From Sulfurimonas sp. HSL-3221 (GTDB lineage Bacteria > Campylobacterota > Campylobacteria > Campylobacterales > Sulfurimonadaceae): a stretch of 64,000 bases of DNA. A program made the translations under genes and the position numbers. The notes below the pieces were generated by a model. It ran no database searches, was not told the DNA's origin, and worked only from the letters and a program-made list of their open reading frames with translations. Positions 10,942 through 15,082 of the stretch are shown in pieces (the stretch's first letter is position 1; every line of letters begins with the position of its first letter). The DNA lies in contig NZ_CP087998.1 of NCBI RefSeq assembly GCF_021044585.1, positions 992,001-1,056,000 of the forward strand. The letters are read 5' to 3'.

Positions 10942-12468
10942 TTGGCACTGTTTGGAAAGCTATTTAAGAAAAAAGAGCCCTCGAGGCCGGAAGTCGTCCC
11001 GGTCGAAGAGGTCGAATTGCAAGACGCCCCGTTCAACCTCAACGATACGTTGCGCGATGTCGCGAATATTCTCTCTCTTGATGCGCAGGAGAAGCGCATC
11101 TCCATCGTTTACCGGATGAAAAAGAATGTCCCTTCCGCCGTTATCGGAGACCGCTACAAGCTCTCCCGTCTGCTGAGCGACATCATCGGGAATGCGATCG
11201 ATTTCACCGATAAGCGCGAAGACGTCGTTGTCCAGATCAGTCGGAACGAAAGCAATGACGAGGCGCTGGAGCTCCATTTTGAGGTGATCGATTACGGGGT
11301 CGGGATGGACGAGACGGTCGTCGAAGAGATCCTGATGCCGATGCTCACCAGCGACACCCCGGCGGCGGCGTTCGAGATCCGCGGCAGCGGGCTGCAGCGC
11401 GCCCGCGACATTGTGCACGCAATGCAGGGCAGCATCCGTCTGAGCAGCCGGCCGAAGAAAGGGACGCGGGTCAATTTCCATCTGCTCCTTTCCGCCGAAA
11501 ACCTCAAGGAAAAACGCCACTACCGTCTGCCGAACAAAGAAGGCGTCGGGCGCAAGACCCTGGTCGTCGACAACGATATCGGCAGTGCGAAGGCCGTGGT
11601 GCCGATGCTGGAGTACTTCCGTCACGACGTGAGCGTCGGTAACGTGGCAGACCTGGCTTTCATGGAGTCGTACGATATTGTTATGGTCTCCTCCGAATAC
11701 TGGAGCGACGAGCTCTATGCGGATATCCAGAAGCTGGGGGAGGCGTGTCCGAAGATCGTGATGATCGAAAGCATGATCAACCACCAGGAGGTGGAGGAGC
11801 GCGCCCTCGAGTACGTCGACTGGCTCATCTATAAACCCTTCACCCAGCAGTTCGTTTTTGAAATGCTGGTGGCGCTCTATTCCGATGCGCTCAGCACGGC
11901 TCCGGAAGAGTCGGAGGCCGCGGCGCCGGAAGCACCTGCCGTCGAAGAGGCCATTAAGGAAGAAGCGCTCCCCGAGCCGCATATTCCGGAAGAGGTCGCT
12001 CCCGCAGCGGACACGGCAAAAGCGAAAGCCGTTTCGGCGGTGGAGGCCTTCCTCAACGGGACGGTCATGGCCGGCGAGCAGAATGAGCGCAGCGTCTATT
12101 GCAAATCTGCCCACCAGTTCTTCGTGGCGGCGGACGGATTGGCCCACTGCGGCAATGACTATACGGCCTTTGTCGAGAAACTCAAAGAGGCGATCTGGAA
12201 GTATGTCAAGGCCGACCGCGTGATCATGGGGATGATCGGCCAGGGACAGCTTGGGGAGGCGGCGGAGTACTGCGTCAAGATGAAGCAGCCCCTCGCCGAA
12301 CTCGGTGTGTATAAACTCGCCTGCCTTGCGGATCTGCTTGAAACGGCGTGCCGGGAGCGGAATGCGGAGGAGATAGAGGCATTGACGAATGCCATCGGAT
12401 TTATTCTCAAACAGACGATTTCGTCCCTCGATCAGTTCATCGAACAGTCGAAATACAAAATCCGTTAG
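10942..12468 (+). CDS. Histidine-kinase-like protein without phosphotransfer residues
   Basis: 508-aa soluble protein. Residues about 40-180 form a GHKL ATPase: N-box with IIGNAIDF, G1 DYGVGMD, G2 RGSGLQRA. There is no HisKA dimerisation helix or H-box. Residues about 195-315 are receiver-like (LVVDND at the start, YKPF near the end), but the phosphoacceptor Asp position is Ser (IVMVSSEYW). A Pro/Glu/Ala-rich linker leads to a helical C-terminal domain (about 360-508). TTG start at 10942 with AAAGGAG upstream. It shares the EKRHYRLP linker with the next gene and is probably its paralogue and partner. Confidence 0.75.
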   Translation: MALFGKLFKKKEPSRPEVVPVEEVELQDAPFNLNDTLRDVANILSLDAQEKRISIVYRMKKNVPSAVIGDRYKLSRLLSDIIGNAIDFTDKREDVVVQISRNESNDEALELHFEVIDYGVGMDETVVEEILMPMLTSDTPAAAFEIRGSGLQRARDIVHAMQGSIRLSSRPKKGTRVNFHLLLSAENLKEKRHYRLPNKEGVGRKTLVVDNDIGSAKAVVPMLEYFRHDVSVGNVADLAFMESYDIVMVSSEYWSDELYADIQKLGEACPKIVMIESMINHQEVEERALEYVDWLIYKPFTQQFVFEMLVALYSDALSTAPEESEAAAPEAPAVEEAIKEEALPEPHIPEEVAPAADTAKAKAVSAVEAFLNGTVMAGEQNERSVYCKSAHQFFVAADGLAHCGNDYTAFVEKLKEAIWKYVKADRVIMGMIGQGQLGEAAEYCVKMKQPLAELGVYKLACLADLLETACRERNAEEIEALTNAIGFILKQTISSLDQFIEQSKYKIR

Positions 12469-12478
12469 GGGGTGGCGG

Positions 12479-15082
12479 ATGCAAAATTATAAACTGATCA
12501 TAACAGCGCTTGTCGCCGTGGCGTCATTGGCATTGATGGCGGCGGAACCCTACATGAACATTGTCGTTGCCGCGGGTAACAGCAAAGCGGAGATGGATAT
12601 CTATGTCCATACGCTGAAACGGAAATTCGCGGCCGATCCCGCCATTGCCGAAGCACAGGCCAATGAACATTTCGAGGTTGTCAGCCGACGGTCGGGGCGT
12701 CACTACATCACCAGCGTCGAGCCGCTCCGCGACAGCGAGGTCGTCTCCAAGGTGCTGGAAAAGGTACAGCGCTATTTCCCGGACGCCTATGTCTACACCC
12801 ACCGCGGCGATGAAGTGCCTGCAGCCGAACCCGAGCCGAAGGTGGAGGTGAAAACGGTCTATGTTCCCGCCGAACCGGAGATCAAAACCGTCTATATCCC
12901 GGCCGAACCGGAGGTCAAGACCATCTATGTCGACAGGCCTTCGAAGGGGATCCCCTCCGAAAAGATTCTGATCGCGCTGATGATCCTCGGAGCGCTCTTG
13001 CTGCTGCTAATCCTCTTCGCCCTCTATCAGAAACAGAAGCTGTCAAAAATAAGCCGCGTGCTCAAAAAAGAGCATGAAGAGCTCGAGCAGATGCTCGAAC
13101 ACCAAGAAGACATCATGGTCAACGTCGGCGAGAAGATCCGGCAGCCGGCCAAGGAGATCAGCACCAGCAGCGAGAAGATCCTGCAGACGCAGCTCGACCC
13201 GGAACAGAGCCGTGAACTGGAGAAGATCAAGCATTCCGACGAACTGCTCCTGGACATCACGAATGACCTGATCGACTTCCTGAACCTCAAGTCCGACAAG
13301 GTCAAGCTGCGGCATGAACTGTTCAATATCAACAACGTCCTCGACGAGATGGCGGGGACGGTCAGTAGCCGAGCACGGGGCCGCGGGGTCGAATTCATCT
13401 TCGACATCGAGAAGGGCGTACCGGCCAAGTTTATCGGGGATTCGCTGCGCCTGGGGCAGGTGCTCACCAACCTGATGAGCAATGCCATGAAGTTCACCGA
13501 AGCCGGGGAAGTAAAGCTCCATATCCGGCGTCTGCCGGACAAGGGCGGGAAGGTGATGCTGGAGTTTATCATCTCCGACACGGGCATCGGTATTGACCCG
13601 AAACGTTTCAACGATATCTTTGAACCCTTCTCTTCGGCCAACGATCTGAAAGAGACGGGACTGGGGCTCTACATCTCCCGTGCGCTGATCGAGATGATGG
13701 GCGGTGCCATCGAGATCAAAAGCGTCATAAGCAAAGGGAGCGATTTCATTCTGACAATCCCGCTGGAAGTGCCGGACGTCAACGAAAAACGCCACTACCG
13801 TCTCCCGGCCAAGGCCTTCACGGGGCACAGCTTCGTGATCGTCGAGGTGCAGCCGACGGCGGCGGATGCGCTCAAAAAGATGCTGGAGTACTTCAAAAAC
13901 GACGTTAGCGTCCGATCGCTGGGGGCGATCCGCAACAAGAGCGATATCCTCTTCGAAAGCGAGGTCGTCATTATCGCCGAAGATGCCTTTACGCCGGACG
14001 TACAGGCCCTGATAAAGCGGGTCAAGAGCGAAACGGACAACAAGGTCGTCCTGGCGGGGAGCATGATGAACGAGCCCCACGACGTCTCAGCGCTTAAATC
14101 GATGATCGATGCGCGGATCATGAAACCGCTGAACCTGCAGCGTATCTACGACCTGATCGTCGACCTTTTCGAAGACAGTATCAAAGAGGTCGATACCGAG
14201 GGCGTGACGCCGCGGCACACGTCGCCCAAAGCGATCACGGAGCAGCACTATGAGGATGTCCCGGAAACGCCGAACATCACGAAGCAGAGCTTCAGTGCCT
14301 TCGCGGGGGCGTCGGTCCTGATCGTCGAAGACAACCTGATCAACCAGAAGGTACTGCTGAGCCTCTTCAACGGCAGCGGCATCAGGGTGACCATGGCCGG
14401 CGACGGCGTCGAAGCCCTTGAAGCGGTGCAGGACCCGAAAAACCGTTTCGACCTCGTGCTGATGGATATCAACATGCCGGTCATGGACGGCTACGAAGCG
14501 ACGCGCCACATCCGTTCGGACGCGCAGTACGACGATATGCCGATCGTCTCGCTGACCGGTCTGGGGCTGCCCGAGGAGATCGCGAAGATGTACGCGCTCG
14601 GGATGAACGCGCACCTGACCAAACCGGTACAGGTGGGGCGGCTCTATACGGTGTTCAGCCGCTTCGTCAAGACGGCGGCCCCGGCAGCCAAGACGCCGGC
14701 CCGCACGGCAACGTCGCCGCTGAAGGGAACCGCGTTCGCCAATACGGAGGTCCTTGCGGCCAGGGACGGCCTCATGCGCGCCAGCGGCGATGCGGAGCTC
14801 TACGGCGAGATCCTCGAGGAGTATGTCACGCTGTACGCCAGCGCGGACCAGACGCTGGAGGTCTTTATTAAGACGGGGAACTTTGATGCCGCCAAGAAAC
14901 TGGCGCACGACATCAAAGGCGTCAGCGCCAATATCGGCGCGACCCACATGGTACAGGTCTGCGAGGCCCTCAATGTCGGCTTGTCGCGGAACCTGGAGAA
15001 CAGCAAACTGCTCGCGCTCAAAAGCGATTTCGACCGCCACCTGCATGATGTATTGAAAGAGGCGAGAAAGTACCTGCCGTAA
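12479..15082 (+). CDS. Membrane hybrid sensor kinase homologue with Glu in place of the H-box His
   Basis: 867 aa. Signal/TM 1-22; periplasmic domain to about 122, possibly SPOR-like; three 11-aa repeats 124-156; TM about 163-183; coiled coil to 215. The H-box reads VNVGEKIRQP where NMSHEIRTP is usual, so the phosphoacceptor His is Glu218. The ATPase is otherwise intact (NLMSNAMKF, DTGIGI, GLGLYISR). A degenerate receiver (about 458-570) precedes a complete receiver with Asp663 (VLMDINMPVMDG) and an HPt domain with His810 (LAHDIKGVSANIG). It cannot autophosphorylate by the usual route and may act as a phosphatase, scaffold or relay. It lies 10 bp after the related gene. Confidence 0.85.
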   Translation: MQNYKLIITALVAVASLALMAAEPYMNIVVAAGNSKAEMDIYVHTLKRKFAADPAIAEAQANEHFEVVSRRSGRHYITSVEPLRDSEVVSKVLEKVQRYFPDAYVYTHRGDEVPAAEPEPKVEVKTVYVPAEPEIKTVYIPAEPEVKTIYVDRPSKGIPSEKILIALMILGALLLLLILFALYQKQKLSKISRVLKKEHEELEQMLEHQEDIMVNVGEKIRQPAKEISTSSEKILQTQLDPEQSRELEKIKHSDELLLDITNDLIDFLNLKSDKVKLRHELFNINNVLDEMAGTVSSRARGRGVEFIFDIEKGVPAKFIGDSLRLGQVLTNLMSNAMKFTEAGEVKLHIRRLPDKGGKVMLEFIISDTGIGIDPKRFNDIFEPFSSANDLKETGLGLYISRALIEMMGGAIEIKSVISKGSDFILTIPLEVPDVNEKRHYRLPAKAFTGHSFVIVEVQPTAADALKKMLEYFKNDVSVRSLGAIRNKSDILFESEVVIIAEDAFTPDVQALIKRVKSETDNKVVLAGSMMNEPHDVSALKSMIDARIMKPLNLQRIYDLIVDLFEDSIKEVDTEGVTPRHTSPKAITEQHYEDVPETPNITKQSFSAFAGASVLIVEDNLINQKVLLSLFNGSGIRVTMAGDGVEALEAVQDPKNRFDLVLMDINMPVMDGYEATRHIRSDAQYDDMPIVSLTGLGLPEEIAKMYALGMNAHLTKPVQVGRLYTVFSRFVKTAAPAAKTPARTATSPLKGTAFANTEVLAARDGLMRASGDAELYGEILEEYVTLYASADQTLEVFIKTGNFDAAKKLAHDIKGVSANIGATHMVQVCEALNVGLSRNLENSKLLALKSDFDRHLHDVLKEARKYLP
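12848..12937 (+). repeat. 33-nt in-frame tandem repeat in the kinase gene
   Basis: Two full 33-nt units (12848-12880, 12881-12913) and a partial third encode V/I-K-T-V/I-Y-V/I-P-A-E-P-E. This forms an extended periplasmic stalk before the second membrane helix. Confidence 0.8.

Follow-up and report, generated by a model that had tools for sequence, protein, structure and literature searches.

We analyzed a 64,000-nucleotide stretch of the closed 2.52-Mb genome of Sulfurimonas sp. HSL-3221 (G000:C1:992001-1056000), hereafter the window, for a tandem pair of histidine kinase homologues that we call P1 and P2. The two genes lie head to tail with a spacing of 10 bases. P2 is a membrane protein with the DHp-CA-REC-HPt domain order of the BarA/GacS-type tripartite kinases (CA, ATPase domain; REC, receiver domain), in which the H box lacks the phosphoacceptor His of an active kinase of this type and carries Glu218 instead. 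P1 is its soluble paralogue and has no DHp domain. Judged from their sequences, both are pseudo-histidine kinases, that is, proteins with a kinase fold whose lack of the phosphorylation site has been fixed by descent.

Domain structure of P1 and P2

A sequence-only reading of the locus had placed Glu in the His position of P2, with the ATPase domain, the receiver Asp663 and the HPt His810 intact, and both the numbering and the open reading frames bear this out. A Pfam search of P2 gave HATPase_c (90.2 bits), receiver (87.0 bits) and Hpt (29.1 bits, over the cut-off). The HisKA score was 14.5 bits, below the Pfam cut-off of 26.9, and a whole-genome HisKA search returned 23 matches at E <= 0.001, with neither P1 nor P2 among them. 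At the positions following Glu218 where the ExxT/N phosphatase motif would lie, P2 has Lys and Gln. The N-terminal end of P2 forms a membrane or signal helix ahead of a periplasmic domain.

P1 had been described as an ATPase domain without an H box and with Ser in place of the receiver Asp; HATPase_c is indeed its sole Pfam match (60.1 bits), and the Ser is confirmed. The N-box D/N, the G1 DxGxG and the G2 Gly are retained and the F box is gone. The EKRHYRLP linker attributed to both proteins occurs in both translations, and each has the degenerate receiver ascribed to it, with Ser (P1) or Ala (P2) at the Asp position. Absent from the earlier description was a C-terminal pseudo-HPt domain in P1, to which a P2-family model gave 36 bits. 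The AlphaFold model of P1, made from 7 sequences, is weak (mean predicted local distance difference test score (pLDDT) 68, predicted template modeling score (pTM) 0.38), and the domain folds alone were taken from it. At their N-termini the P1 orthologues share the motif M-x-[LIF]-F-x-K, followed by a basic stretch (window 10942-10974), a short sequence that is possibly a membrane-attaching peptide.

Table 1. Features of P1 and P2 (window coordinates; aa, amino acids; TM, transmembrane).
Feature	Position	Strand	Remarks
P1 gene	10942..12468	+	508-aa soluble pseudokinase without DHp; TTG start; N-terminus MALFGKLFKKK
P1 HATPase domain	11146..11490	+	Pfam, aa 69-183
P1 pseudo-receiver	11551..11895	+	Ser in the phospho-Asp position
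P1 C-terminal pseudo-HPt	12127..12447	+	Val in the His position; helical in the model
P2 gene	12479..15082	+	867 aa from ATG 12479; membrane pseudo-hybrid kinase, SPOR-TM-DHp(E218)-CA-pseudoREC-REC-HPt
P2 periplasmic SPOR-fold domain	12548..12814	+	aa 24-112
P2 second transmembrane helix	12965..13027	+	about aa 163-183; read by eye from the sequence
P2 pseudo-DHp	13064..13324	+	aa 196-282; Glu218 codon GAG at 13130-13132
P2 ATPase domain	13325..13792	+	canonical N, G1, F and G2 residues
P2 pseudo-receiver	13841..14188	+	Ala in the phospho-Asp position
P2 true receiver	14291..14668	+	Asp663 codon at 14465-14467
P2 HPt	14747..15064	+	His810 codon CAC at 14906-14908; most relatives Leu

A single ancient loss of the phosphoacceptor His

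To place P1 and P2 among their relatives, open reading frames with scores of at least 80 (CA), 44 (pseudo-receiver) and 100 bits (receiver), no more than 30% gaps and the domains in order were aligned over these three domains. The resulting quick tree has 135 rows, in which near-copies were retained, so that row counts are not event counts. Site 218 is His in 70 rows and another residue in 54; the DHp site is unreadable in 11, one of which (L193, a contig-edge fragment) lies among the His rows and was left out of the clade count. The distinction between His and non-His requires one change on this tree, at a branch of 64 His-less rows with an SH-aLRT support of 99. The quick tree gives a long-branch warning; a careful tree of 68 of 87 rows, from which most rows with a degenerate N box were thinned, agrees on the clade and supports it at 100/97. 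Seven rows (L110, L200, L091, L099, L175, L176 and L102) had been dropped before the 87 as long or broken. Loss of the phosphoacceptor His is thus ancient and of single origin.

Within the His-less clade, which is mostly from Campylobacterota, eight P1-type rows (100/99) are sister to all remaining rows in the careful tree. Because the P1-type rows nest inside this clade, P1 and P2 are an old duplicate pair that arose within it. The duplication predates the split between the window genus and genus g12, and the genes are in tandem in both (G018 and G033 in g12). The closest His-bearing sisters, from g6 and g2, share the SPOR-type N-terminus described below, so the clade probably descends from an ordinary tripartite kinase of the SPOR type. 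Matches to P2 at E <= 1e-60, which include His-bearing relatives, were found in 52 of 151 genomes at the family level and 25 of 347 at the class level.

Residues lost and kept in the His-less clade

The residue at site 218 is Glu in 35 of the 64 clade rows, Gly in 5, Asp in 5, Gln in 3, Asn in 3, and Lys, Ala and Val in one each, with 10 unread. Four clade rows are gapped at this site in the model alignment, although for L107 and L109 a Glu is aligned there by BLAST; the rows classed as having no DHp include fragments and broken frames (L158, L102). The sequence-only reading had said beforehand that orthologues bearing His would speak against it: none of the 54 readable clade sites is His, and none is Tyr, the residue of DivL. 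It had also asked if Glu218 is invariant, and this did not hold, as 19 of these sites carry one of the other seven residues. Glu218 is accordingly rejected as an invariant phosphomimic (Glu in only 35/54). We also rejected chance, a recent mutation and a sequencing error, as every readable clade member is non-His at the site and dN/dS, the ratio of nonsynonymous to synonymous substitution rates, is low in every folded domain. A substitute His at +3, where some of the clade reads SENIH, was rejected too: only 21 clade rows have His in that column, so it is not conserved.

The HPt site is Leu in 33 of the clade rows, Ile in 7, Val in 6, His in 5 and another residue in 8 (5 unread), so that His is kept in 5 and replaced in 54 of the 59 readable rows. 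The Mg-coordinating N-box Asn is kept in 22 of 64 rows and replaced in 42, by Tyr in 27, and the full ATP-binding set is intact in 15, the window lineage among them. The HisKA phosphatase motif (Glu with Thr or Asn) is present in no clade row, compared with 66 of the 70 His rows. Of the 64 rows, 61 still have the receiver Asp. Because the phosphoacceptor and phosphatase motifs are gone and the receiver Asp persists, the chemistry conserved in the clade is that of a phosphate acceptor.

In the window lineage, G000, G001, G006 and G007 retain the whole ATPase set together with Asp663 and His810. Position 810, CAC in the window, is Leu (CTC or CTG) in G005 of the same genus and in G018 and G033. 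On the tree the HPt His requires 2 changes if regain is allowed and 7 independent losses if it is not; a regained HPt phosphoacceptor (window 14906-14908) would be unusual.

Selection on P1 and P2

Between G000 and G006, dN/dS for P2 was 0.041 in the DHp, 0.108 in the CA, 0.041 in the pseudo-receiver, 0.070 in the receiver, 0.057 in the HPt and 0.097 in the SPOR domain; for P1 it was 0.037 in the CA, 0.055 in the pseudo-receiver and 0.083 in the pseudo-HPt. The control genes gave 0.046 (ygiQ), 0.071 (trpD) and 0.020 (lptB). No folded domain exceeded a dN/dS of about 0.15 in any of the pairs compared. The dead DHp ranks among the most constrained parts, and P1 and P2 are therefore not relics.

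The periplasmic domain of P2 has a SPOR fold

The periplasmic domain of P2, absent from the earlier description, has a fold of the SPOR type, which binds septal peptidoglycan. An AlphaFold model made with 36 homologous N-termini had a pLDDT of 88. Foldseek ranked a designed ferredoxin fold first; the best natural matches, at ranks 2 and 3, were the wall-binding domain of CwlC and the SPOR domain of RlpA (probabilities 1.00 and 0.98), with no match reaching E 0.001. VIA-align placed the RlpA SPOR domain (Z 9.4, 2.1 Å over 71 residues, two entries) and CwlC (Z 8.5) at its first three ranks, above rows with 8.2 and 7.5. A Pfam search of the periplasmic part gave no family above its cut-off, and the SPOR model gave no match; the homologue L065 scored 14.7 bits with it against a cut-off of 21. 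Our model of the domain (A1) matches G000:C1:1542339-1542653 at E 6.5e-21, and this sequence is itself above the Pfam SPOR cut-off. The predicted fold and this linking sequence, rather than P2's own Pfam score, support its assignment to SPOR. Two more SPOR-type proteins of the window genome (L249 3768-4463, 5022-5972) have one and two SPOR copies and a C-terminal transmembrane helix, with no signaling domain seen in either.

The locus and related gene pairs

P1 immediately precedes P2 in six genomes (G000, G001, G006, G007, G018 and G033). The locus has the conserved order ygiQ-P1-P2-S4-trpD-tsaE-lptB, in which the assignments of tsaE, lptB and the S4 protein are putative. The neighbors of the pair in the window were inspected for a partner, and they include neither a response regulator nor a further kinase. 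In G002, P2 (L158 5146-6540) is a 465-aa frame without the N-terminal part or the HPt and has no adjacent P1, which reflects either decay or an assembly fault.

Relatives without any kinase domain also occur. In genus g8 a kinase-domain-free receiver and HPt protein, with the HPt His changed to Leu, is encoded directly upstream of a P2-type gene at 8 of 8 loci (L056-L063), and three longer versions show a SPOR-type N-terminus once aligned. The window genome carries its own such relative, L202 2795-4642 (G000:C1 about 1338794-1340641), with the order SPOR-TM-acidic linker-receiver-HPt and the HPt His again Leu, an architecture shared with the g8 upstream genes. All 24 rows without a kinase domain retain the receiver Asp; these rows include fragments and second copies of a single gene. 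Genus g8 has in addition a second, more degraded tandem pair (L187 1079-2356 and 2320-4461; L189 5226-6533 and 3108-5204), consisting of a CA/pseudo-receiver protein of 426-436 aa followed by a pseudokinase of 699-714 aa in which the receiver Asp is also lost.

At L095 4824-10117 and L097 714-5419, a DHp-less member of the clade is followed directly by an active His hybrid kinase, with overlapping open frames; these are natural pseudokinase-kinase pairs. The L097 kinase groups with a 1042-aa kinase of the window genome (SH-aLRT 99), which is for this reason a candidate partner of P2. At L251 2187-7456 the window genome encodes, in this order, a 582-aa protein that has two HPt matches, the 1042-aa hybrid kinase and a 125-aa receiver; these genes likely form a separate relay.

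Comparison with known signaling proteins

The nearest parallels are RetS, DivL, RcsD and the BarA/GacS/TorS tripartite kinases. RcsD, a membrane protein in which an HPt comes after a pseudo-kinase core, is like P2 in this respect; P2 differs in its own true receiver and intact ATPase, and scores 96.2 bits with the NCBIfam RcsD model against a cut-off of 634. P2 shares the DHp-CA-REC-HPt order with BarA, GacS and TorS, and BarA is its best NCBIfam match at 306 bits, far under the BarA cut-off of 890; P2 differs in lacking the phosphoacceptor His and in its SPOR periplasmic domain. The CA fold of P1 matches the structures of RetS and GacS. RetS is not known to have an HPt or a SPOR domain, nor DivL a receiver or an HPt.

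RetS of Pseudomonas aeruginosa is described (PMC5992135) as a membrane hybrid that, as we propose for P2, is unable to autophosphorylate and is phosphorylated on its receiver by another kinase: Asp858 of RetS receives phosphate from the GacS DHp His, and RetS inhibits GacS autophosphorylation. By the same account RetS keeps the DHp His, has lost the G boxes and carries two receivers. P2 has the reverse pattern, and the combination of degenerate G boxes with a retained DHp His is not found in it. In Caulobacter DivL, according to PMC4211667, the phosphoacceptor His is likewise replaced with the other kinase boxes kept, and the core is reused as a docking sensor. DivL differs in having Tyr where P2 has Glu, in its PAS domains and in sensing DivK~P.

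A model for P1 and P2

We propose that P2, a pseudo-histidine kinase anchored by its SPOR domain, receives phosphate on its receiver in trans from an active hybrid kinase, with the dead core serving as a docking scaffold and P1 as a soluble companion, a model to which we assign a probability of about 0.5. P1 and P2 are an ancient pseudo-histidine kinase pair of the BarA/GacS tripartite type, with P2 in the inner membrane and its SPOR domain in the periplasm, where it may bind septal wall glycan. The missing phosphoacceptor His would exclude the usual autophosphorylation, and the missing ExxT motif the standard HisKA phosphatase role. Asp663 would then be phosphorylated by one of the cell's active hybrid kinases, and the DHp-CA core would provide a dimerization and docking platform for that kinase, for P1 or for both. 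The pair may in this way tune another kinase or read its activity, as RetS does on GacS and DivL on CckA; probably P1 and P2 regulate other signaling proteins rather than signal themselves. In the window genus, His810 could hand the phosphoryl group onward.

Several observations weigh against this model. The window lineage retains the full ATP-binding set and His810, both superfluous for a pure acceptor, and L214, L215 and L216, all from one genus, show the reverse of the clade pattern, with the receiver Asp changed to Asn and the ATPase set mostly intact. Any partner kinase of P2 in the window genome is a candidate only. G004 has a P1 (39% identity) at the locus and G003 a P1 fragment, with no P2 orthologue detected in either genome, which makes it doubtful that P1 and P2 form an obligate complex; the complex suggested by the sequence-only reading has in its favor the gene pair, as found in the six genomes.

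The same reading had proposed that ATP binding, not autophosphorylation, is the signal, so that closure of the P1 and P2 CA domains around ATP would act as a gate. The canonical N, G1, F and G2 residues of P2 in the window genus and the g8 and g12 lineages, despite the missing His, count in favor of such a gate, as do the Mg-coordinating Asn and Gly-rich motifs of P1, with a CA dN/dS of 0.037. Since only 15 of 64 rows keep the ATP-binding set, with the Asn replaced in 42 (mostly Tyr, 27), ATP gating is not the shared mechanism of the clade; as the signal in the window lineage we consider it unlikely. The other proposal was that Asp663 and His810 are fed by another kinase. For Asp663 this option fits best, given the Asp in 61 of 64 rows; as a general statement it is not supported for His810, which is kept in only 5 of 59. 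An RcsD-like relay, in which a phosphoryl group loaded onto Asp663 in trans travels through His810 to a response regulator, draws on the four genomes with both residues intact, on the low dN/dS of the HPt (0.057) and on an Hpt match that clears its cut-off; with Leu at 810 in G005, G018 and G033 and a residue other than His in 54 of 59 readable rows, it would be a local feature and not the general function, and we regard it as rather improbable.

A further possibility is that P2 works as a transmitter phosphatase on a receiver belonging to a different kinase. RetS, of which this is the second mechanism, is the precedent, and the conserved His is dispensable for such activity according to PMC12632262. 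No clade row retains the ExxT/N motif that follows the His position, and P2 has Lys and Gln there, which makes a phosphatase very unlikely. That P1 and P2 are decaying, functionless remnants would accord with the progressive loss of motifs over the clade and with the truncated P2 of G002, but is hardly credible given the constraint on the folded domains, the conserved locus and the long intact frames in several genera.

A bolder idea reverses the direction of signaling, with the receiver as input and the periplasmic SPOR domain as output. Phosphorylation of Asp663 in the cytoplasm would, through the dead core as a mechanical coupler, alter the engagement of the SPOR domain with the division-site wall. 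A SPOR-TM-REC-HPt protein whose HPt His is Leu has no other obvious output than SPOR, which suggests such a direction, and the existence of these kinase-free relatives makes the idea worth testing, although we consider it unlikely.

Searches of the open-licence PMC literature listed nothing on this clade or on a pseudo-histidine kinase with a SPOR domain. Most of what is known of pseudo-histidine kinases comes from individual examples, among them DivL and RetS. Here the order of losses can be read in one old clade, in which the DHp His was lost once at the base, and the HPt His and ATP binding were lost in parts of the clade while the receiver stayed. A survey that started from HisKA matches found 0.9% without the His (PMC12632262); surveys of this kind would miss P2, because it scores below the Pfam HisKA cut-off. 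Inside-out signaling was floated by the authors of the DivL study (PMC4211667), and the SPOR domain, in linking P2 to the cell wall or division site, would make that idea directly testable.

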